From positions 1 through 64,000 of the forward strand of contig JAFXXN010000145.1 of the NCBI GenBank assembly GCA_017542245.1: a stretch of 64,000 nt of DNA. The letters are read 5' to 3'. Below are positions 36,621 through 64,000 of the stretch, one piece after another. Origin of the DNA: Lachnospiraceae bacterium. Its GTDB lineage: Bacteria; Bacillota; Clostridia; Lachnospirales; Lachnospiraceae. Under the pieces are notes generated by a model. The model was not told where the DNA came from. It saw only the letters and a program-made list of their open reading frames with translations, and did not search any database. Position 1 is the first letter of the stretch, and every line of letters starts with the position of its first letter. A program made the translations under genes and the position numbers.

Positions 36621-37553
36621 TCAATCTGTGAATAATGCTGTTGAATAGTATCTGTCGCCGCTGTCGGGAAGAAGCGCAACTATCACCTTGCCCTTGTTTT
36701 CCGGACGCTTAGCGAGCTCTAATGCTCCGTGAAGAGCAGCACCTGAAGAAATACCTACGGAGATACCCTCCTTCTTTGCAAGTAATTTAGCTGCTGCAAA
36801 TGCGTCAGCGCCTTCAGCCTTGAAAATCTCGTCATAAATTTTTGTGTTAAGGACGTCGGGAACAAAGCCGGCACCGATACCCTGTATCTTATGAGGGCCT
36901 GCCTTGCCTTCTGAAAGGACGGGTGAGTCCGAAGGCTCTAACGCAACTATCTTTACATTAGGATTCTGTGATTTTAAATATTCTCCTGTACCGGTAAGGG
37001 TCCCGCCAGTACCTACGCCTGCGATAAAAATATCAACCTTTCCGTCGGTATCATTCCAGATTTCGGAACCTGTGGTTGCCTTATGTACGGCAGGGTTAGC
37101 AGGATTTACGAACTGTCCGGGGATAAAGCTGTTAGGGATTTCCTTTGCAAGCTCTTCAGCCTTTGCTATGGCACCCTTCATACCCTTTGCTCCTTCAGTA
37201 AGGACAATCTCAGCACCATATGCCTTTAAGATATTTCTTCTCTCAACGCTCATGGTCTCAGGCATGGTAAGGATAATCCTATATCCCTTTGCAGCTGCTA
37301 TAGAAGCAAGACCGATTCCTGTATTTCCGCTTGTAGGTTCTATGATAACCGAACCTTCCTTAAGAAGACCCTTAGCCTCTGCATCCTCGATCATGGCCTT
37401 TGCAATACGATCCTTAACACTGCCTGCGGGATTGAAATATTCGAGCTTAACAAGTACTGTTGCCTCTAATCCCAGTTCCTTTTCAATATTTGTAACCTCA
37501 ACAAGAGGTGTATTTCCTATTAATCCTAAAGTTCCCTTATAAATTTTTGACAT
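36621..37553 (-). CDS. cysK: Cysteine synthase A (O-acetylserine sulfhydrylase)
   Basis: The 310-residue PLP enzyme joins sulfide to O-acetylserine to make cysteine in the cytosol. Signature features are GNTPLVEV at the N-terminus, the PLP lysine (about 44) in [11 protein letters not shown], the substrate loop [12 protein letters not shown], the PLP phosphate site GTGGTLTG, and SGISSGAAL near the C-terminus. Length is normal. The ATG follows GAAGGA. It is the second gene of an operon with metY behind a cysteine-coding leader peptide, so its expression is probably tied to cysteine supply. CysE, the maker of O-acetylserine, is encoded at 60267-61226. Confidence 0.95.
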
Positions 37554-37592: not shown

Positions 37593-38873
37593 TTAAACAG
37601 CAGCAAATCCATTTTCAAGATCTGCAATTATATCATCAACATGCTCTGTACCTATTGAAAGTCTGATAGTGCTCTGGTTAATACCCTGATCTAAGAGTTC
37701 TTCTTCGGTCAGCTGTGAATGAGTTGTTGTTGCGGGATGGATAACCAAACTCTTTACATCTGCAACGTTTGCAAGAAGTGAGAAAATCTTAAGATTATCG
37801 ATGAACTTCCAAGCTTCTTCTTTTCCGCCCTTGATATCAAATGTGAATATCGAGCCACCGCCGTTCGGGAAGTATCTCTTATAAAGCTCGTGATCGGGAT
37901 GATCCGGAAGTGAAGGATGATTTACCTTAGCTACCTTAGGATGGTTCTTTAAGAACTCTACAACCTTCTTTGTATTCTCTGCATGTCTGTCAAGACGGAG
38001 TGATAATGTCTCAACGCCCTGAAGAAGAAGGAATGCATTGAAAGGAGAAATAGTAGCACCGGTGTCCCTAAGAAGTATAGCTCTGATGTATGTAACAAAA
38101 GCAGCGGGACCAACTACATCGTAGAAGGATACTCCATGATAGCTGGGATTGGGAGCTGCAATGTTCGGATACTTTCCGCTTGCCTTCCAGTTAAACTTAC
38201 CCGACTCAACAATTATACCACCAAGAGTTGTTCCGTGTCCACCGATAAATTTAGTAGCCGAATGAACTACGATATCTGCACCGTGTTCGAAGGCTCTGAA
38301 AAGATAAGGAGTACCAAATGTATTATCTACTACTACGGGAAGTCCGTACTTGTGAGCTATCTCCGAGATAGCATCTACATCGGGGATGTCGCTGTTGGGA
38401 TTGCCGAGAGTCTCTAAGTAGATCGCTCTGGTGTTTTCCTTTATGGCTCCCTCAACCTCTGCCAGATTATGAGCATCAACGAATGTGGTCTCTATGCCGT
38501 ACTGGGGAAGTGTATGTGCAAGTAAATTGTAGCTGCCACCGTAGATGGTCTTCTGGGCTACGATATGTCCGCCGTTAGCTGCTAAAGCTTCTATTGTATA
38601 AGTTATTGCTGCTGCACCTGATGCAAGTGCTAATGCTGCACTTCCGCCTTCAAGTGCTGCAAGTCTCTTTTCTAATACATCCTGGGTTGAATTGGTAAGT
38701 CTGCCGTAAATATTACCTGCATCTGCAAGACCAAAACGATCTGCTGCGTGCTTACTGTTATGGAATACATAAGAAGTTGTCTGGTAAATCGGAACTGCTC
38801 TTGAATCTGTAGCGGGATCTGCCTGTTCCTGTCCAACGTGCAACTGTAATGTCTCAAATTTATAATTGCTCAT
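37593..38873 (-). CDS. metY: O-acetylhomoserine/O-acetylserine sulfhydrylase
   Basis: The 426-residue enzyme is a Cys/Met-metabolism PLP protein of the MetY group (start [23 protein letters not shown], split after QLHVGQ). It makes homocysteine from O-acetylhomoserine and sulfide. The PLP lysine (about 207) lies in [13 protein letters not shown], with the SSAxA-type region [16 protein letters not shown] earlier and [13 protein letters not shown] at the end. The ATG follows AAGGAG. It is preceded by a roughly 300-nt leader with a promoter, a Cys-rich leader peptide and a terminator. A paralogue lies at 57652-58920. Confidence 0.93.
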
Positions 38874-38950
38874 AATCGTAATCTCCTTGAATATATATTG
38901 TTTTATTATTTTGGGTTATATGTTTTTATTTCGTTATTTAAGTGAGTCAA

Positions 38951-39082
38951 TAAAAAATGCCCGAGGCATTTCGGCTCCCGGGCAAATGGCTTGAAGAATT
39001 CAGCGAATAGATCAACATCGTTCTGTTATGAGGCGCATGAAGTACCCTTCAACTGCCCCAGCCATATCAACTGCCCGGGAGT
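38951..39082 (-). promoter_or_regulatory. Transcription attenuator with competing hairpins before metY
   Basis: On the minus strand, arm 1 CTCCCGGGCA (39081-39072, inside the leader peptide) can pair with arm 2 TGCCCGGGAG (38984-38975). Arm 2 can instead pair with the distal CTCGGGCA (38964-38957), and AAATGCC-TCG-GGCATTT plus a T-run (about 38970-38951) forms an intrinsic terminator. The alternatives are mutually exclusive, as in amino-acid attenuators. Confidence 0.78.
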
Positions 39083-39134
39083 TTTGCATTCGACAACAAC
39101 ACATGACATCTGTTTTATAATATGTAGTGGTCAT
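39012..39134 (-). CDS. Cysteine-rich leader peptide of the metY-cysK attenuator
   Basis: A 40-codon frame starts with ATG at 39134 behind AGGAGG (10-base spacing) and ends at TGA 39012. It contains VMCCCRM: three successive TGT codons at 39101-39093, with a further Cys as the last residue. The three codons lie 11 bases before arm 1 of the attenuator. By analogy with His and Trp leaders, a ribosome stalled here by lack of charged tRNA-Cys would free arm 1 to pair with arm 2 and block the terminator. With ample cysteine, the ribosome covers arm 1 and transcription stops before metY. The peptide itself need have no other function. Confidence 0.8.
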   Translation of the reverse strand: MTTTYYKTDVMCCCRMQNSRAVDMAGAVEGYFMRLITERC

Positions 39135-39186
39135 ATCCCAGCGCCTCCTTTTTCTGTCTTTCGGTCTTGTTTCATCCGATGTACAT

Positions 39187-39220
39187 GTTATAACACATAT
39201 TACCTACTATGTCAATAGGT
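39187..39220 (-). promoter_or_regulatory. metY promoter with shared sulfur-gene operator
   Basis: -35 TTGACA (39215-39210), 17-nt spacer, -10 TATAAC (39192-39187). The -35 is embedded in CCTATTGACATAGTAGG (minus strand, 39219-39203), an imperfect palindrome also present at the promoters at 40085-40118 and 43250-43282. Confidence 0.75.
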
Positions 39221-39277
39221 TTTAAAATAAGCAAAATTTATAGCAGGTTATCAATTTAATTGATAACTGAATCATGT

Positions 39278-39317
39278 TAAAAAAATAGGCATCCCATCAA
39301 TACTCTGACGGAATGCC
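39278..39317 (-). terminator. Terminator of the JAMM-TusA operon
   Basis: On the minus strand GGCATTCC pairs with GGGATGCC around a 14-base loop, followed by TATTTTTTT. It starts 7 bases past the TusA-like stop codon. Confidence 0.8.
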
Positions 39318-39323
39318 AAACTT

Positions 39324-39575
39324 TTAATCTCCTACTTTTTTGATAAACAGTTCAAATGTACCATCACCGTTATCCACAAGTTTCAGCACCTGATGACCTT
39401 CTTCTTTGATGCTTCTGGGTACGTTCTGGACAGGCTCACCGTCATTGATATGCACCTGAAGTATCTGTCCGTCATCAAGCTCCTCTAAAGCTACCTTTGT
39501 CTTAACGAATGTTACCGGGCATACCACATCGGTAATGTCCACCTTGTCATCTGCTTTGATATCATACTCTGCCAT
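39324..39575 (-). CDS. TusA/SirA-family sulfur-carrier protein
   Basis: The 83-residue protein matches the TusA/YeeD fold: beta strand VDITDVVCPVTFVKTKVALEEL with the family Cys-Pro at the helix start, then DGQILQVHINDGEPVQNVPRSI and a final strand. TusA-like proteins pass persulfide sulfur between cysteine desulfurases and acceptors. It shares an operon with a JAMM-type peptidase, 32 bases upstream, and lies in a region with ThiS, ThiF and an encapsulin-linked cysteine desulfurase. The second Pro of the classic CPxP is replaced by Thr (CPVT), so carrier use may differ from E. coli TusA. Confidence 0.88.
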   Translation of the reverse strand: MAEYDIKADDKVDITDVVCPVTFVKTKVALEELDDGQILQVHINDGEPVQNVPRSIKEEGHQVLKLVDNGDGTFELFIKKVGD

Positions 39576-40084: not shown

Positions 40085-40118
40085 AGTATAACACCATTTG
40101 CCTACTATGTCAATAGGT
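40085..40118 (-). promoter_or_regulatory. Promoter of the JAMM-TusA operon with shared sulfur operator
   Basis: -35 TTGACA (40113-40108), 17-nt spacer, -10 TATACT (40090-40085). The 17-base CCTATTGACATAGTAGG surrounding the -35 is identical to that of the metY promoter. Confidence 0.75.
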
Positions 40119-43249: not shown

Positions 43250-43282
43250 AGAGTAGCACCTTTTACCTACCATGTCAATAGG
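43250..43282 (-). promoter_or_regulatory. ridA promoter with shared sulfur operator
   Basis: -35 TTGACA (43278-43273), 17-nt spacer, -10 TACTCT (43255-43250). CCTATTGACATGGTAGG around the -35 differs by one base from the metY and JAMM-operon copies. The leader (43206-43250) folds into a hairpin of ACAAGGA/TCCTTGT arms with an inner TGTCA-GAAA-TGAC. Confidence 0.68.
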
Positions 43283-43286
43283 CCAT

Positions 43287-44930
43287 TCAAATAAAACTGG
43301 AATCCTTTACAAGTCCATATTCGTATGATGAAACTTTTCTTACGAATGATACTATATCTTCCTCGTGTTTTTGTTCCTTTTCATAACTTGTTACTTCAGA
43401 TTTTGAGTCAAGCAGTGCTTGAATCTGATTATCATTATGTGTAAGAAGCAATACTACTATTCCCGCTTCATTAAGATGCTTAATAATAACATGCAGTTCA
43501 TTTTCTTTCACATTTTCATCTGCTTCCAAAAGATATGTATGTCTTCCACCTAAAATCAGTTTCTTTTCAACCTTTTCAAGCAATGCCTTGCTAATCCCCT
43601 GAGAACTCTTAAACAATATGGTTACAGCCTTTTGGCCAAGGACGGAACTTCTTGTATCCTTTGTTACATTATCTCCGATCAGTCCGCCATTCTTTTCATA
43701 CTGTTCAACCACACCACACGCACTTGTGACAAAAGATATCCTGTCTATAAGTATCAGCTCGCCCAGTGTTTTATGATCTTTAAACTTTGCGATGCTGATC
43801 CTGTCAGTAAGAGATATCCTGCAGACTGCAATCTCGTTTTTCTGAACAACATCTGTTTCTCTGAACTTTCCGGTATTGACATCTATTGTATACAAGATTT
43901 TTGTTACTATACCAGGTATAAGGGAAGTTCCAAGTTTAACAAAATAATTTATTCCGTTATGAAGCGGAGTATCATCCATCCAAAGGATGGTAGCTGTTAA
44001 TGAATCGGCGGTCTCAATTCCTGCATCCTTTACTATAACAGAGCCACGCGAAATGTCTATTTCCCTGTCTAACTGCAGTGTTACCGCCTCTCCTTTTACT
44101 GCACTTCTTTCTTTTTTATCTCCGACATAAATTGAATTTATCCTTGCTTTTTCTCCGCCGGGAACAACGGTTATTTCATCTCCTTCTGTAATATTTCCGC
44201 TTTCTATCTGTCCCTGGAAACCTCTGAATGTGTGGTCAGGTCTGCAGACTCTCTGTACAGGAAGATAAAAGCCTTTTTCTTCTGAATTTTCGGATACTTC
44301 TACATTTTCAAGGTATGAAAGCAGGCTTTCTCCTGTGTACCATTTCATAGTATCCGTGGTATGTGCAACGTTGTCCCCTTCAGTCGCAGATACAGGAATA
44401 ATCTTAATATTTGCCAGCTGAAGTTCCTTTGCTAGTTCCTCAATCTCTGCCTCTATTTTATGAAATACGTTTTTATCATATTTAACAAGATCCATCTTGT
44501 TGACAGCAAATACAAAATATCTGATGCCCATTACAGAACAGATGCGGGAATGTCGTCGTGTCTGGATCAATACCCCCTTAGCAGCATCTACAAGTATGAT
44601 CGCCAGATCTGCAAATGAAGCACCTACAGCCATATTTCTTGTATATTCTTCGTGTCCGGGAGTATCTGCCACTATAAAACTCCTGACATCTGTCGTAAAA
44701 TAACGGTATGCCACATCTATTGTTATGCCCTGCTCTCTTTCCTCGGTCAATCCGTCAAGCAAAAGAGAATAATCTATTTCTCCGTTTCTGCTCCCGACCT
44801 TTGATTCGAGAGCAAGTGCTCTTTCCTGATCAGCATAGAGCAGTTTTGAATCGTATAATATATGTCCGATAAGTGTTGATTTTCCGTCATCAACACTTCC
44901 ACATGTTATAAATCGAAGTAGATCCTTCAT
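43287..44930 (-). CDS. cysN: Sulfate adenylyltransferase subunit 1 (CysN) with a degenerate APS-kinase-like tail
   Basis: The 547-residue GTPase drives ATP sulfurylase (with CysD), making APS from sulfate. Motifs are GSVDDGKST, the switch DTPGHEEYTRNMA and NKMDL. The beta-barrel domains follow to about residue 420. The last about 125 residues resemble the APS kinase CysC (QKAVTILFKSSQGISKALLEKVEKKL, GRHTYLLEAD, HLNEAGIVVLLLTH), but the kinase P-loop GxSGSGKS is gone (SSQGIS) and the domain is short, so it cannot bind ATP in the usual way. The ATG at 44930 lies 1 base after the cysD stop. A dead kinase fits a pathway that reduces APS directly through AprAB. Confidence 0.92.
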   Translation of the reverse strand: MKDLLRFITCGSVDDGKSTLIGHILYDSKLLYADQERALALESKVGSRNGEIDYSLLLDGLTEEREQGITIDVAYRYFTTDVRSFIVADTPGHEEYTRNMAVGASFADLAIILVDAAKGVLIQTRRHSRICSVMGIRYFVFAVNKMDLVKYDKNVFHKIEAEIEELAKELQLANIKIIPVSATEGDNVAHTTDTMKWYTGESLLSYLENVEVSENSEEKGFYLPVQRVCRPDHTFRGFQGQIESGNITEGDEITVVPGGEKARINSIYVGDKKERSAVKGEAVTLQLDREIDISRGSVIVKDAGIETADSLTATILWMDDTPLHNGINYFVKLGTSLIPGIVTKILYTIDVNTGKFRETDVVQKNEIAVCRISLTDRISIAKFKDHKTLGELILIDRISFVTSACGVVEQYEKNGGLIGDNVTKDTRSSVLGQKAVTILFKSSQGISKALLEKVEKKLILGGRHTYLLEADENVKENELHVIIKHLNEAGIVVLLLTHNDNQIQALLDSKSEVTSYEKEQKHEEDIVSFVRKVSSYEYGLVKDSSFI

Positions 44931-44931
44931 C

Positions 44932-45834
44932 CTAGAAATATCCCTCCTTCTTTCTGCGTTCCATGCTGCCGTCACCACTGTCCTTGTCAATGACTCTTGT
45001 GGTACGCTCAGATTCTACGGCACTCAGAGTTTCTTGAATTATGTCATCCAATGTCACAGCATCCGACTCAAAACCTCCTGTCAGAGGATAACATCCAAGT
45101 GTCCTGAAACGTATCTTCTTTGTCTCTATTTTCTCGCCTTCCTTTAGCTTCATACGGTCATCATCAACCATGATAAGCTGTCCGTCACGCTCTACACATG
45201 GACGTTCGGCGGCAAAATACAGCGGAACTATATCGATATTTTCCTGTTTTATATATTGCCAGATATCCTTCTCGGTCCAGTTTGAAAGAGGGAATACACG
45301 TATGCTCTCGCCCTTATGTATTTCCGTATTATAGAGCTTCCACATTTCAGGCCTCTGATTCTTGGGATCCCAGCCCTGTGCTTCATTCCTGAAAGAGAAA
45401 ATTCTTTCTTTGGCCCTTGATTTTTCCTCGTCTCGTCTGCCTCCGCCAAATGCTGCTGTAAAACCATATTTTGTAAGCGCCTGCTTTAAAGCCTGGGTCT
45501 TCATAATATCCGTATATGATGAGCCGTGATCAAAAGGATTAATACCCTGTTTCACACCCTCTTCATTTGTATATACGATCATATCCAACCCATACTTTTC
45601 AGCCTGTTTATCACGGAAAGAAATCATCTCCTTAAACTTCCAGGTTGTATCTATATGCATGAAAGGAAACGGAGGTTTTTCCGGATAAAATGCCTTTAAT
45701 GCCAAATGTAGCATTACAGAACTGTCCTTACCGATAGAATACAGCATTACCGGTTTCTCACATTCTGCTGCCACCTCACGCATAATATATATTGCTTCTG
45801 CTTCCAAGCTGTCTAAATGAGTTAATTTTTTCAT
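44932..45834 (-). CDS. cysD: Sulfate adenylyltransferase subunit 2
   Basis: The 300-residue PP-loop enzyme adenylates sulfate together with CysN. Characteristic segments are [56 protein letters not shown] and [15 protein letters not shown], all conserved. Length is normal for CysD. The ATG follows AAGGAG at 9 bases. It lies between aprB and cysN in the operon, with a family 2 palindromic repeat in the 50-base gap before it. Confidence 0.95.
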
Positions 45835-59191: not shown

Positions 59192-60007
59192 TCAGTGTTT
59201 TGATTTTAATTCACATGCCGGCTGTTCATAATCGATAAGCTCTGTAATAGTAGGTGTATCCGAACATACTGCACAGCCCTTGCCACGAGGCGGCAACTTT
59301 ATCTTATGGAATTCCATCTTAAGTGCATCGTAAGTCAACAGATATCCGGAGAGTAATTCTCCTACACCTGTAATGTACTTTACTGCTTCCATCGCCTGAA
59401 GTGAACCGATAACACCACCCATGGCTCCTATGACACCTGCCTGCTTACAGGTAGGAACTGCATCCTTGGGGGGCGGATTTTTGAAGATACAACGATAGCA
59501 CGGACCTTCCCCCGGAAGGATCGTAGTCAGCTGCCCCTTAAACCTTATTATTCCGGCATGGCTGAAGGGCTTTTTAGCCATAACGCATGCATCATTTATC
59601 AGGAATTTTGCAGGGAAATTATCCGTTCCATCCAGAATGAAATCATAATTCTTAATAAGATCCATGATATTGTAGCTGCTGACAAATTCATGATAAGTAT
59701 TTACCGTTATGTCAGGGTTGATAGCACGCATAGTTTCTGCTGCTGACTCAACCTTTAATTTTCCAACATCATTTGTGGAATGAATGATCTGGCGCTGAAG
59801 ATTGGACAGATCTACAACATCGGCATCAACAATACCGATAGTTCCTACTCCTGCCGCAGCCAGATACATTGCTGCAGGTGCACCAAGACCACCTGCGCCT
59901 ATGATCAGCACCTTGGCATTGAGGAGTTTTTTCTGACCTTTTACGCCTATTTCCTTTAATATAATATGTCTCGAATAACGTTCGAGCTGTTCATTTGTAA
60001 ATGCCAT
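59192..60007 (-). CDS. ThiF/MoeB-family adenylating enzyme for a ThiS-like sulfur carrier
   Basis: The 271-residue E1-like enzyme has the nucleotide site GAGGLGAPAAMYLAAAGVG, the Asp in DADVVDLSNLQRQI, DGTDNFPAKFLINDA, the CxxC zinc pair CYRC (with CAVC near the end) and the candidate catalytic Cys in AVPTCKQAGVIG. Such enzymes adenylate the C-terminal glycine of ThiS, MoaD or CysO so that it can be thiolated. It overlaps the thiS-like gene by one base (TAATG) and lies in the operon of encapsulin, cysteine desulfurase and CysE. No thiamine or molybdopterin genes are near, so a role in cysteine or sulfur trafficking is more likely. Confidence 0.9.
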   Translation of the reverse strand: MAFTNEQLERYSRHIILKEIGVKGQKKLLNAKVLIIGAGGLGAPAAMYLAAAGVGTIGIVDADVVDLSNLQRQIIHSTNDVGKLKVESAAETMRAINPDITVNTYHEFVSSYNIMDLIKNYDFILDGTDNFPAKFLINDACVMAKKPFSHAGIIRFKGQLTTILPGEGPCYRCIFKNPPPKDAVPTCKQAGVIGAMGGVIGSLQAMEAVKYITGVGELLSGYLLTYDALKMEFHKIKLPPRGKGCAVCSDTPTITELIDYEQPACELKSKH

Positions 60008-60213
60008 TATCTTCCTCCTCCCATAAAGTAAAGGAATTCTACCTCATCTCCTTCTTTAAGGGTAGTTGTATCAAATGCAGCCGAATCAACAAACTCCTCG
60101 TTTACTGAAACGGTTACATACTGAGGTGTCTCAACATTTTCAAGTTCAATAAGCTTAGAAACTGTTAAGCCATCATCATACTCTTTCTTTTCACCTGCAA
60201 CTGTAATTTTCAT
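60007..60213 (-). CDS. ThiS/MoaD-like sulfur-carrier protein with extra C-terminal arginine
   Basis: The 68-residue ubiquitin-like protein reads MKITVAGEKKEYDDGLTV at the start, LIELENVETPQYVTVSVNEEF in the middle (split after NVETPQ) and FLYFMGGGR at the end. Sulfur carriers normally end in exposed Gly-Gly; here one residue, Arg, follows. That would have to be removed before ThiF could activate it, as with QbsE, or else the enzyme tolerates it. The ATG at 60213 follows AAGGAG; the frame opens earlier without a ribosome site. It is coupled to thiF by a one-base overlap. Confidence 0.85.
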   Translation of the reverse strand: MKITVAGEKKEYDDGLTVSKLIELENVETPQYVTVSVNEEFVDSAAFDTTTLKEGDEVEFLYFMGGGR

Positions 60214-60266
60214 TTTGAATCTCCTTAAATATTTAATACTATTTATGACACCATAGATTGGTCGTA

Positions 60267-61226
60267 TCATATGATATAATACCAGGCATCGCTCTGATGT
60301 ATTTCTTCCTTCTTTACCTGATTATTGGTGGTACGATATTCCATCTCAGGGTTCTTCATGCTCACCCTGGTATTTGCCGGTACAGAACTTGTAATAAAGG
60401 TATTACCACCTATCACGGAATTCTCTCCGATTATGGTGTCACCGCCTAAGATCGAAGCTCCGGCATATATAGTCACATTATCTCCCACAGTAGGATGACG
60501 TTTCTTGCCCGAAAGTTTCTGTCCGCCTCTGGTTGATAAAGCACCTAATGTCACGCCTTGGTAAATCTTTACATTTTTGCCTATAACGGTAGTCTCGCCG
60601 ATAACTATACCTGTGCCATGATCTATAAAGAAATACTTATCGATCTCGGCTCCGGGATGTATATCTATTCCGGTTTCCGAATGGGCATATTCTGTCATAA
60701 GTCTGGGAATTATCGGAACCCGGAGCTTATACAGTTCATGCGCCAATCGATATACCGTAATAGCCATTAGGCCCGGATATGCAAGTATTATTTCCTCAAA
60801 ACAACCTGCTGCCGGATCTCCGTCAAATGTTGCAAGAAGATCCGTTTCTATAGTCTCGCGTATAGCAGGGAATCTTCCAAAGAATTCAGTACAGATCTCA
60901 TAGGCGGTATTGATACGCTCTTCCTCCGTCATTGTGCCCCTCAGTTTACAGAAATCAAGAGCAAGTACCACCTGTTTATGCAGACGGTAATACAGATCCT
61001 CTATAGCTACCGCCAGACTGTTTTTCAGATTATAAATCTTATATGCTCTCTCTTTAAAATATCCCGGATAAACAATCCTTGTAAGTTTAAGCAGGATTTC
61101 CCTAACCTCAGTCTTATCAGGCTTGTTAAAGACATTAAAGGCATCTATATTTTTTTCTCCGTCATAGTCCGAAAGGATATTCTGAACTATGCTGTCTATA
61201 CCAAATTCTATTTTCTTTTCTTCCAT
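60267..61226 (-). CDS. cysE: Serine O-acetyltransferase
   Basis: The 319-residue protein has an N-terminal helical domain (about 1-180), then the left-handed beta-helix of hexapeptide repeats with the catalytic His-Asp region (EYAHSETGIDIHPGAEI, DHGTGIVIGETTVIGKNVKIYQGVTLG) split here at the repeat junction. KRHPTVGDNVTIYAGASILGG is also typical of EpsC/SAT enzymes. It makes O-acetylserine for CysK. Family 2A encapsulin loci commonly carry a serine acetyltransferase, and this one follows the desulfurase gene by 13 bases in the same operon. The long N-terminus is that of the SrpH/EpsC subgroup. Confidence 0.92.
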   Translation of the reverse strand: MEEKKIEFGIDSIVQNILSDYDGEKNIDAFNVFNKPDKTEVREILLKLTRIVYPGYFKERAYKIYNLKNSLAVAIEDLYYRLHKQVVLALDFCKLRGTMTEEERINTAYEICTEFFGRFPAIRETIETDLLATFDGDPAAGCFEEIILAYPGLMAITVYRLAHELYKLRVPIIPRLMTEYAHSETGIDIHPGAEIDKYFFIDHGTGIVIGETTVIGKNVKIYQGVTLGALSTRGGQKLSGKKRHPTVGDNVTIYAGASILGGDTIIGENSVIGGNTFITSSVPANTRVSMKNPEMEYRTTNNQVKKEEIHQSDAWYYII

Positions 61227-61239
61227 ATTCAGAACCTAT

Positions 61240-63096
61240 TTAAGCAAATGTTTTCAGTACTTTTACAAGTGCATCAACATCATCAAATGAATTATACAAT
61301 GCAAGTGTTGGTCTTACCGAACCCTCTAAACCAAAGTGTCGAAGTACAGGCTGTGCACAGTGATGACCCGTACGGACTGCTATGCCGTAGCTGTCAAGAC
61401 GCTTTCCAACCTCTTCATCCGAATACCCGTCCAGTTTGAAGGAAAGCACTGAAGCTTTATTAAGTGCAGTACCTATCAAATGAAGTCCCTTAACAGTCTT
61501 CATCTCCTTTATTGCATACTGAAGGAGCTCATGCTCCCATCTGTATACGCAGGGCATTCCGATTTCTGTCAGATACTGCAGTGCTGCGCCTAATCCTACC
61601 GCATCAGCTATGCTGCCTGTACCTGCTTCAAATTTGTTAGGTATGGGATTATAGATAGTACGTTCAAAAGTAACGTCAGCTATCATATTCCCGCCGCCGT
61701 GATAAGGTCTTGCAGCTTCCAAAAGCTCTTTCTTTCCGTATACAACACCTATACCTGTGGGAGCGAAAATCTTATGTCCCGAGAACACAAAGAAATCAAC
61801 ATCCAGTGCAGAAACACTTACCGGAATATGTGCTACCGACTGGGCACCGTCTATCAGTATCCTTACTCCATGCCTGTGGGCAATGGCAGTAAGCTCTGCT
61901 ACGGGTGTAACGGTTCCGAGTACGTTCGAGACATGTGTCACAGCAACAAACTTTGTTTTCTTTGTAAACAGCTTCTCATACTCATGAAGAATGAGCTGTC
62001 CTGTTTCATCACAAGGGATGACCTTTATTATCGCGCCTGTTTCCTGAGCTACAAGCTGCCAGGGAACTATATTGGCATGATGCTCGAGGATGGAAACAAT
62101 TATCTCGTCTCCCGGCTGTAACTGAGGCTTAACATAGGCATTAGCCACAAGGTTTATAGCCTCTGTAGTACCTCTTACGAAGATTATCTCTTCGGAAGTA
62201 GGTGCTCCGATAAAGTCCCTTACGATATCCCTTGCATTTTCATATGCATCCGTAGATCTGGCTGCTAATGTATGTGCACCTCTGTGAACATTTGAGTTTT
62301 CATGCTCATAATAGTACTTTAATCTGTCTATTACTGCCTTAGGTCTCTGGGTTGTAGCACCGTTATCCAGCCATACCAGACGATTTCCGTTTATCTGTTC
62401 CCGAAGGATAGGGAAATCGCTTCTTATCTGTGCCAAAGTTTTACTTCCTATACGGATGCTTTCATCCCTGGAAGTAAATACCCTTCTTTCTTCCTTTTTC
62501 TTATCTACCGCATCACCGCCAAGTGATGTGGGAGCGTCGATCTTTCTGCCTTTCTGCTGGCTTTCTGTCTGTGACATAACAACCGGGGCATAGCCTTTGT
62601 TTTCTCCGGCTATTGCAGGTATATCTCCTGCTCCGGGAAGATAAACCGCATCAGTTGATGCCGGTGCCTGAACTGTCTTCAGGTATGGCTCAGCAACTTC
62701 AGATGAACCACCATATGCAAACGGATGCTCCCAATCGAAACCATCGCTTGCTATATCGGAATATCTGCCATATCCACCATTTCCAGCTGATACTTCCGGT
62801 AGACTAGCAGGTGCTGTTTCTGTAGCATCCTTTGTAGGAACGCCTGCTCCCGGGATAGCATTTTGTGCTTCGGTAGGAACAATACCTTCTGCATAACCCC
62901 GACCGGACTGCGCAGGAGAAGTACCTGCGGCCTGCAGAGCATCCTCCGGCTGAGGAACTGCGGAACCTGCCCCTGCAGCATTGCTGCTTATACCGGCTAA
63001 ATCAGGAAACAGTTCATTTGCCCACGCACTGACTTCGGCGGCGCTCGGAAGCCCGTAAAGACCTTCAGCTCCAAAACCTCTATCAATCGTAGTCAT
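61240..63096 (-). CDS. Encapsulin-cargo cysteine desulfurase (SufS-like) with long disordered N-terminal domain
   Basis: The 618-residue enzyme has two parts. Residues 1 to about 218 are low-complexity, rich in Ala, Gly, Pro and Ser, with two conserved-looking islands (GLPSAAEVSAWANELFPDL and YSDIASDGFDWEHPFAYGG). The rest is a group II SufS-like desulfurase: VWLDNGATTQRP, the His in LEHHANIVPW, the PLP lysine (442) in FSGHKIFAPTGIG, and the persulfide Cys (580) in RTGHHCAQP. In Synechococcus SrpI encapsulins an N-terminal disordered region of this kind directs loading. The ATG at 63096 is preferred over a TTG and GTG just upstream. It overlaps the encapsulin gene by 14 bases. Confidence 0.93.
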   Translation of the reverse strand: MTTIDRGFGAEGLYGLPSAAEVSAWANELFPDLAGISSNAAGAGSAVPQPEDALQAAGTSPAQSGRGYAEGIVPTEAQNAIPGAGVPTKDATETAPASLPEVSAGNGGYGRYSDIASDGFDWEHPFAYGGSSEVAEPYLKTVQAPASTDAVYLPGAGDIPAIAGENKGYAPVVMSQTESQQKGRKIDAPTSLGGDAVDKKKEERRVFTSRDESIRIGSKTLAQIRSDFPILREQINGNRLVWLDNGATTQRPKAVIDRLKYYYEHENSNVHRGAHTLAARSTDAYENARDIVRDFIGAPTSEEIIFVRGTTEAINLVANAYVKPQLQPGDEIIVSILEHHANIVPWQLVAQETGAIIKVIPCDETGQLILHEYEKLFTKKTKFVAVTHVSNVLGTVTPVAELTAIAHRHGVRILIDGAQSVAHIPVSVSALDVDFFVFSGHKIFAPTGIGVVYGKKELLEAARPYHGGGNMIADVTFERTIYNPIPNKFEAGTGSIADAVGLGAALQYLTEIGMPCVYRWEHELLQYAIKEMKTVKGLHLIGTALNKASVLSFKLDGYSDEEVGKRLDSYGIAVRTGHHCAQPVLRHFGLEGSVRPTLALYNSFDDVDALVKVLKTFA

Positions 63097-64000
63097 AGTA
63101 TTCACCAACCTCTACATCCTCCAAAACTGCTATAGCGTCGTCTGCAAGTATTGCTGCTGAGCAGTATAATGATAAAAGATATGATGCAACGCCCTTGTCA
63201 TCAATGCCTCTGAAACGAACAGAAAGACCTCTAGAGTGTTCATTCTTAAGTCCTGCCTGGAAAAGACCGATAACACCACGCTTTGCTTCTCCGGTACGGA
63301 TGAGCAGGATATTGGTCTTGCCGCTCTGTGATGTAGGATTCTTAAGTCCGTCAACAAGGAGCTTATCTGTAGGAACGATCGGGATTCCTCTCCATGTAAG
63401 GAATGTGCCGCCTGCGATATTTACAGTAACCGGGGGTACTCCACGTCTTGTACATTCTCTCTCAAATGCAGCTATTGCTCTCGGATGAGCAAGGAAGAAG
63501 CTGGGCTCTTTCCATACTTTAGAGATAAGTTCATCCATATCATCGGGAGTGGGAGCACCTGTTCTGGTCTGGATTCTCTGTGAATCAGCAATATTCTTAA
63601 GCAGACCGTAATCATCATTATTGATAAGCTGGCTTTCCTGACGCTCTCTTAAGGACTCAATCGCAAGACCTAACTGTTCCTGTACTTGATCATAAGGTGC
63701 ACTGTATACATCTTCGATAGCAGTGTTTACATTAATAATGGTGGAAATAGAATTTAATCTGTACTCTCTGGGCTCTGTCTCATACTCAACATATCCGTTA
63801 GGAATAATATCTGACTTCTTGGTCTGGCTGCACAGAACATCAAGCGGTGTTTCGCCCTCTACAACCTTGTTTACTCTGTAGATACCTGTCTCTAAGCCCT
63901 TGAACTCAAGGAACTTTGTTAGCCACTTGGGAGTCAGGGCTCCATACTGGGGCTTTGTTTTGGTGACGTTGGCCAGGTTATAGGCTGCTTTTGCGCCTAA
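63083..64000 (-). CDS. Family 2A encapsulin shell protein (SrpI-like), N-terminus outside the window
   Basis: The minus-strand frame runs without a stop from 64000 to the TGA at 63083 (305 codons), so only a few N-terminal residues are missing. It reads AAYNLANVTKTKPQYGALTP, KFLEFKGLETGIYRVNKV, LNSISTIINVNTAIEDVYS, LKNIADSQRIQTRTGAPTP and then EPSFFLAHPRAIAAFERECT, RRGVPPVTVNIAGGTFLTW and FQAGLKNEHSRGLSVRFRGI. This is the HK97-fold E-loop, P-domain and A-domain layout of SrpI/major membrane protein I encapsulins. The shells are 24-nm-class compartments that enclose cysteine desulfurase. The next gene encodes that cargo. The genes around it are biosynthetic and no other phage gene is near, so it is not a prophage remnant. 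Confidence 0.92.
   Translation of the reverse strand, partial: LGAKAAYNLANVTKTKPQYGALTPKWLTKFLEFKGLETGIYRVNKVVEGETPLDVLCSQTKKSDIIPNGYVEYETEPREYRLNSISTIINVNTAIEDVYSAPYDQVQEQLGLAIESLRERQESQLINNDDYGLLKNIADSQRIQTRTGAPTPDDMDELISKVWKEPSFFLAHPRAIAAFERECTRRGVPPVTVNIAGGTFLTWRGIPIVPTDKLLVDGLKNPTSQSGKTNILLIRTGEAKRGVIGLFQAGLKNEHSRGLSVRFRGIDDKGVASYLLSLYCSAAILADDAIAVLEDVEVGEYYDYD

Follow-up and report, generated by a model that had tools for sequence, protein, structure and literature searches.

A Probable Cysteine Attenuator Family, Widespread yet Patchy in Clostridia, That May Read Methionine by Codon Exchange

Leader Locus Upstream of metY-cysK

The window, which is the whole stretch of 64,000 nucleotides analyzed from contig JAFXXN010000145.1 of a Lachnospiraceae bacterium, carries on its minus strand a leader region followed by metY and cysK. 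The promoter, the ribosome-binding site and the sensor codons were read from the sequence itself. In the direction of transcription, the features are:

39202..39220, minus strand: operator-like palindrome ACCTATTGACATAGTAGGT, an exact match, overlapping the -35 box
39187..39215, minus strand: predicted promoter, TTGACA (39215-39210), 17 nt spacer, TATAAC (39192-39187)
39144..39150, minus strand: ribosome-binding site of the leader ORF, AAGGAGG
39012..39134, minus strand: leader ORF MTTTYYKTDVMCCCRMQNSRAVDMAGAVEGYFMRLITERC, 40 codons, last codons CGA TGT TGA; relatives carry related ORFs
39093..39101, minus strand: sensor codons TGT TGT TGT, Cys 12-14, peptide context …VMCCCRM…
39086..39092, minus strand: CGA ATG C, with the near-invariant CGA Arg codon; possible 5' strand of helix P0
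39061..39081, minus strand: antiterminator arm 1, CTCCCGGGCA (39081-39072) and ATGGC (39065-39061); helix P1
39030..39059, minus strand: inner hairpin P2, GGGGC (39059-39055) with GCGCCTC (39036-39030)
38975..38990, minus strand: arm 2, GCCAT (38990-38986) and TGCCCGGGAG (38984-38975), common to antiterminator and terminator
38952..38983, minus strand: intrinsic terminator GCCCGGG/CCTCGGGC and T run (38957-38952), computed to form when arm 1 is masked
37593..38873, minus strand: metY, O-acetylhomoserine sulfhydrylase (TIGR01326, 626.5 bits, cut-off 495.1)
36621..37553, minus strand: cysK, cysteine synthase (TIGR01139, 449.2 bits, cut-off 350.95)

The promoter, the 40-codon frame, its ribosome site and the three TGT codons proposed in a preliminary description of this DNA are all present on the minus strand, and the complementarity of the two arms and a terminator reusing arm 2 were likewise found in the sequence. 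Helix P1 is longer than had been described, its arm 1 extension ATGGC pairing with GCCAT, and both the palindrome and hairpin P2, which P1 encloses, were absent from that description. The predicted promoter gives the leader ORF a 5' stretch of about 45 nt. A generic scan of the locus for promoters and terminators listed neither the leader promoter nor the leader terminator; the promoter was missed because the scan demands T at the last base of the -10 box. Folded as a single sequence, the leader has a z of -1.55, with 14/200 shuffles equally good; since this barely beats the shuffles, its non-chance status rests on conservation and covariation.

Searches of the leader region against Rfam 15 returned no family at the gathering score, ten relative loci had no Rfam match up to E 0.5, and membership of an Rfam family was therefore rejected. 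The T-box model RF00230 had no match at 38850-39350 up to E 5; elsewhere in the same genome it gave 12 matches, 8 of them over the cut-off. In the NCBIfam search, no leader family matched the peptide.

Distribution of the Leader Family

With E values up to 1 accepted, a search with the peptide matched 22/61 related genomes, most of the weak matches being chance; the good ones share GTCATGTGTTGTCGAATGC..A.CTCCCGGGCA, with small differences, together with the palindrome. A strict pattern matched 9/392 genomes of the window's order, and a pattern scan of named species genomes gave at least 118 stretches, including at least one apparent chance match (L077). The titles of the matches listed are nearly all from Lachnospiraceae, Saccharofermentans, Ruminococcaceae and other Clostridia; isolates among these matches include Hungatella hathewayi DSM 13479, Clostridium citroniae, C. 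porci, C. fessum, Lachnospiraceae YSD2013 and YSB2008, and Ruminococcaceae P7. The search pattern required two Cys codons, CG-, ATG and TCCCGGG. Loci from the genome searches brought the listed pattern matches to 138, and removal of duplicates and N-containing stretches left 126 distinct leaders, referred to below as the pattern set.

Because the pattern set is preselected for Cys, conservation of Cys was judged on a second, model set only. Its basis is the covariance model R1, built from the CGA codon onward without the Cys codons and run on whole genomes; the set comprises every place from the order and family searches with R1, re-found and aligned (n = 84). R1 includes CGAATG, and the R-M and CGA counts in the model set (CGA in 74/84) are therefore non-independent. 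In the large model searches, whose strict filters lose weak matches, R1 matched 25/392 genomes of the order and 46/397 genomes of the window's family, the latter in 42/334 genera; a second model, built from an enlarged leader set, matched 10/291 genomes of the class (own included), adding four families, and, in 199 genomes sampled from the phylum, matched the own genome with the other 198 blank. The preliminary description had proposed looking for the peptide and hairpins ahead of sulfur genes in related genomes. Hairpins and Cys codons were indeed found there, while 351/397 family genomes gave no match. Judged by these searches, the leader is a large, patchily distributed family in Clostridia, with many carriers from the gut and rumen.

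Conservation and Covariation of the RNA Helices

From 79 representatives of the pattern set (among the matches listed), 62 diverse leaders were aligned with MAFFT. Across this alignment P1 and P2 were paired in 89.8% of cells, compared with 27-52% for slid structures, and showed 38 two-sided changes against 10.6 (sd 3.0) in shuffled alignments, with 0/500 as high; counting against this, the slid structures still showed 10-29 two-sided changes. The terminator helix was paired in 82.9% of cells, with 6 two-sided changes against 1.9 shuffled (1/500 as high); slid by one, it was paired in 73.8% and showed 12 two-sided changes. The arm 1 core is fixed by the search pattern in this set and unable to covary, and R1 was therefore built and run on genomes. 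The 84 model-aligned loci, in an alignment biased towards the structure to which it was fitted, contain 151 two-sided changes, compared with 34.7 (sd 5.8) shuffled and 28-53 slid. Two pairs of the P1 core show 12 changes from G-C to A-U apiece, giving CCCAGG with CCTGGG, and GGAC with GTCC. As the helices are conserved and covarying, the candidate explanation of a chance hairpin was rejected.

The RNA arm can outlast the peptide it encodes. In L035, L041 and L071, compared by eye, an indel shifts the frame and the MAGA peptide is gone, with the arm kept; a script found such frame-shifting indels in 5/72 leaders of the pattern set that have a recognised arm.

In a further, early hairpin, P0, CGAATGC would pair with GCGTTCG and arm 1 with ATGGCCGGGG, which would correspond to a trp-like fourth segment. 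P0 was paired in 80.5% of cells as against 30-40% slid, but with no covariation. Its effect on folding was a terminator probability of 0.19 compared with 0.14 when the P0 strand was shuffled (p 0.03), and P0-driven termination was not predicted for the window's own leader. With covariation absent and the folding effect small, P0 was dropped as a proven protector hairpin.

Computed Fold Switch

Base-pair probabilities of arm 2 were computed for 117/126 pattern leaders, among the matches listed, by equilibrium rather than co-transcriptional folding. The nine left out comprise two incomplete leaders and seven in which arm 2 or the T run was not recognised; among the seven are the chance-like L077 and three (L012, L065 and L102) that show both arms by eye. 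The extent of the ribosome footprint follows general knowledge. Hiding the RNA before +15 mimics a ribosome positioned on the Cys codons; in this state arm 2 paired upstream with a mean probability of 0.88 and with the terminator strand at 0.11 over the 117 leaders, although the terminator still exceeded 0.5 in 12/117, which counts against the switch. When arm 1 itself was hidden, these values became 0.01 and 0.83, with the terminator above 0.5 in 113/117; shuffling arm 1 gave a terminator value of 0.79 (117 leaders). As free RNA, 116 leaders showed upstream pairing of 0.59 and terminator pairing of 0.35; the window's own leader reached 0.99 for the antiterminator, that is, predicted read-through without a ribosome.

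By pairing and by computed folding, antiterminator and terminator are mutually exclusive. The comparison suggested in the preliminary description, folding with and without arm 1 exposed, thus predicts a switch from antiterminator to terminator in most of the 117 leaders; by computation, a stalled ribosome would permit the antiterminator and a ribosome over arm 1 would prevent it.

Sensor Codons: Cysteine, and Methionine in One Genus

A Cys codon lies at most four codons before the conserved Arg in 82/84 loci of the model set, and two or more Cys codons occupy those four positions in 63/84, with TGT used 146 times and TGC 21 times. Loss of Cys with the hairpins kept, which the preliminary description had named as refuting, was seen in the remaining two loci (L245 and L246), which have no Cys among the four codons and speak against the attenuator reading. 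An ATG with a ribosome site is present at any distance upstream in 74/84 loci, and at 13-17 codons in 63/84.

The three successive Cys codons that the preliminary description regarded as the sensor did not prove to be the conserved feature: CC stands directly before R in 51/84 loci compared with CCC in 14/84. A required CCC run was accordingly rejected, L003 reading MCCY and L007 MCCP. Other forms of the core include MWCRM, MYCRM, MCMCRM, MCMMRM and MCMRRM, so that a single Cys with Trp, Tyr or Met is also seen, and Met codons are common in the leaders as well.

Genus g47 shows a distinct form. The leader was found in 9/29 of its genomes, 20/29 having no match, and all nine leaders, which represent one lineage and not nine independent cases, precede a MetN-like ATPase (best model TIGR02314 MetN, 330.7 bits, below its cut-off of 499.7). 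All nine have three Met codons within the last six before R, reading MMyMCMR, MMhMCMR or MMCMCMC with at least one Cys retained, and all nine carry the compensated core CCCAGG:CCTGGG. In the three g47 loci whose next genes were read, an ATPase, a permease and a lipoprotein follow in succession; Pfam confirmed the identity of the permease and of the NlpA lipoprotein at one of the three. Another genus contributes L228, with a partial MetN match of 261 bits. Enrichment of Met in the first four MetN-like loci gave a Mann-Whitney p of 0.0013, a weak test because 3/4 of the loci belong to one genus. Which codons are sensed seems to depend on the target gene, with Cys and Met apparently exchangeable on one scaffold. 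If so, swapping these codons on one RNA scaffold to suit the target would be a natural experiment on attenuator specificity.

Genes Served by the Leaders

The genes behind the 84 model loci, assigned by BLAST to the first gene set, point mostly to sulfur metabolism. The gene within 1.5 kb encodes MetY in 47 loci, an importer binding protein in 15 and a MetN-like ATPase in 4; the others are 3 CysK, 3 ABC permeases, 1 JAB, 3 M20 peptidases and 8 unmatched. A sulfur-amino-acid enzyme or an import-type transporter thus stands behind 73/84 model leaders; the 11/84 loci that serve genes outside these main groups count against the attenuator reading. In three loci (L182, L225 and L249) the named gene starts 700-900 nt downstream. 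In the first set, among the matches listed, a downstream gene was found for 149/154 leaders; 92/149 precede MetY and 37/149 an importer binding protein, the one behind L080 combining a solute-binding domain of family 3 with an NlpA lipoprotein domain.

The eight unmatched genes comprise four GST-like ones, a PFL-like enzyme (L210), a cyclase-family protein (L223), a weak HD match (L242) and a LysR gene (L244). The GST-like targets (L207, L224, L226 and L241) are unexpected for a cysteine switch. Pfam assigned a GST C-terminal domain to L207, L226 and L241 and returned no match for L224, by eye a close relative. Behind L244, the LysR gene (by eye) is followed by a nitrogenase-like oxidoreductase (PF00148), which by analogy perhaps serves sulfur scavenging.

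Proposed Mechanism and Alternative Explanations

The leader is, with a probability of roughly 0.85, a ribosome-mediated transcription attenuator that would read charged tRNA-Cys. RNA polymerase would start at the promoter and a ribosome enter the leader ORF. With Cys-tRNA scarce, the ribosome would halt on the Cys codons and its leading side would stop immediately before arm 1. This arm (CTCCCGGGCA...ATGGC) could then pair with arm 2 (GCCAT..TGCCCGGGAG) around P2, the terminator would be blocked and metY-cysK transcribed. With Cys plentiful, the ribosome would cover arm 1, arm 2 would join the terminator strand and transcription would end. We infer that the leader ORF is translated, that the ribosome has such a footprint, that it stalls and that read-through follows. 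Antitermination at low cysteine, as the preliminary description proposed, is the best-supported reading, given the Cys codons, the fold switch and the mostly sulfur-related genes; it is favoured because Cys precedes arm 1 in 82/84 loci that were found without Cys in the model. The family would thus probably be a widespread yet patchy cysteine attenuator of Clostridia, extended to methionine by codon exchange, and would give many gut and rumen Clostridia a leader-peptide cysteine sensor.

A putative repressor binding the palindrome could instead be the main sulfur response, with the leader only fine-tuning it, which we regard as possible but doubtful. The palindrome ACCTATTGACATAGTAGGT, which we take to resemble an Rrf2-type site, is widely kept: ACCTA-N9-TAGGT with at most one mismatch occurs at 48/83 model leaders (one of the 84 loci lies too near a contig end), compared with 0.6 expected by chance in shuffles, and five more (L200, L223, L227, L235 and L236) carry the variant TCCTA...TAGGA, with both outer bases exchanged. 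In the own genome the palindrome matches exactly at four sites and with one mismatch at three; with up to two mismatches allowed there are 9, against 3 for a reversed-pattern control. Two one-mismatch sites in the window stand ahead of leaderless genes, at 40100-40118 before JAB and TusA genes and at 43265-43283 before a RidA-family gene and a rhodanese/TtcA-like fusion. However, the three metN leaders tested (L179, L180 and L183) have no good match to the palindrome, and the helices and Cys codons are conserved independently of it. Promoter repression and attenuation are compatible layers, not exclusive ones.

Arrest by the nascent peptide, in which free cysteine or another small molecule would be sensed in the ribosome tunnel in place of tRNA charging, appears improbable. 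Good conservation of the short core (M)CCRM speaks for it, but at codons -14 to -6 before R no residue is found in more than 17/84 loci, C, M, W and Y interchange in the core, and Met dominates ahead of the MetN-like importer. A riboswitch or protein-binding RNA with an incidental ORF is very improbable: the RNA is strongly conserved, with hardly any variation of arm 1 and CGAATG across the pattern set, in part a product of the search pattern itself, but the in-frame Cys codons, the ATG and ribosome site described above and the blank Rfam searches argue against it.

Neighboring Sulfur Genes and a Second Leader

The palindrome-linked genes inside the window are likely to form a sulfur regulon. 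Adjoining genes at 43287-45834 encode EF-Tu-type GTPase and PAPS-reductase domains, a pair that presumably corresponds to the two subunits of sulfate adenylyltransferase.

A second leader (L216), absent from the preliminary description, lies on the same contig at 66032-66175, about 2 kb past the window. Behind it are genes for JAB, ThiF-rhodanese and a type 2A encapsulin shell protein (PF19307, E 1.6e-96), and further on a class-V aminotransferase (desulfurase-like) with a long N-terminal extension, a hexapeptide transferase (CysE-like by eye) and a ThiF protein. The part inside the window is:

59192..63108, minus strand: ThiF protein, hexapeptide transferase and class-V aminotransferase of the second cluster

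From its gene content, this cluster is possibly a sulfur-storing compartment under the same cysteine switch. At the other end of the window, a GA-cis RNA (RF02987, 58.1 bits) was matched at 2127-2215.

Comparison with Known Attenuators

The trp, his and leu attenuators combine a short ORF with codons for the pathway amino acid with exclusive antiterminator and terminator hairpins. The Clostridia leader resembles them in its ORF with pathway codons, its exclusive hairpins and a predicted stall site just before the antiterminator arm. It differs in probably sensing Cys (or Met), in its occurrence in Clostridia and in arms nearly fixed in sequence; an early protector hairpin (P0) is weakly supported in it, and, unlike the classic trp attenuator, the window's leader is predicted to read through without a ribosome.

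T-boxes and repressors are the usual tools in Clostridia, and polycysteine leaderless ORFs have reportedly been described in mycobacteria by Canestrari in 2020. No earlier description of the leader in Clostridia was found among open-licence PMC papers. Cys leader peptides are known in Actinobacteria, where the mycobacterial regions are described as lacking conserved terminator hairpins (PMC1262725). These ORFs share with the Clostridia leader Cys codons ahead of sulfur genes, whereas the latter has a ribosome-binding site and a conserved intrinsic terminator and is not leaderless. Closer in design is uORFC-8-2, a tandem-Cys uORF ahead of cysS in Rhodobacterales, with 145 examples described and attenuation proposed (PMC8632094). 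Both have tandem Cys codons in a uORF and a U-run terminator. uORFC-8-2 belongs to Alphaproteobacteria and serves cysS only, while the Clostridia leader serves MetY, CysK and importers; its arms and peptide are also different, and genes and taxa set the two apart. His leader peptides known in bacilli (PMC2965389) are a further case of leader-peptide attenuation in Firmicutes, with another amino acid and in another lineage.

Fixed CGA Codon and a Possible Role of tRNA Thiolation

The Arg codon after the Cys codons is CGA in 122/125 pattern leaders (among the matches listed), its third base having been left free by the search pattern; in the downstream genes CGA makes up 49/1608 Arg codons (3%). 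Among the same listed matches, RC or RCx closes the peptide in 53/125 leaders, encoded with CGATGT in all 53; the window's leader ends likewise, with CGA TGT TGA at 39012-39020. A plain explanation would be that CGAATGC is held constant by P0 pairing, which leaves the terminal CGATGT unaccounted for. A near-invariant CGA beside the Cys codons also raises tRNA thiolation as a possible regulatory signal.

All 73 tRNA-like matches in the genome fall within loci scanned with ARAGORN, which gave the Arg anticodons ACG, TCT, CCG and CCT; no tRNA-Arg with anticodon TCG was found in this assembly (completeness 97%, contamination 8.6%). Of the tRNAs found, tRNA-Arg(ACG) alone is expected to read CGA, through inosine wobble, and its copy on contig C8 has C at position 32 (by eye). 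According to a review (PMC5372741), E. coli tRNA-Arg(ICG) is unable to bind CGA when position 32 carries 2-thiocytidine. It is conceivable, though we consider it unlikely, that the switch reads sulfur twice, through charged tRNA-Cys and then through tRNA thiolation at CGA. In a sulfur-rich cell, pausing at CGA would keep the ribosome on the start of arm 1 and thereby enforce termination; as sulfur and thiolation drop, the pause would disappear. The TtcA-like gene in the window, behind the RidA-family gene and its one-mismatch palindrome, scored 195 bits against a model cut-off of 272.

Elsewhere in the genome, contigs C111 and C7 carry dense tRNA clusters, one with the odd anticodon Asp ATC; these contigs are perhaps phage or contaminant sequence in the assembly.
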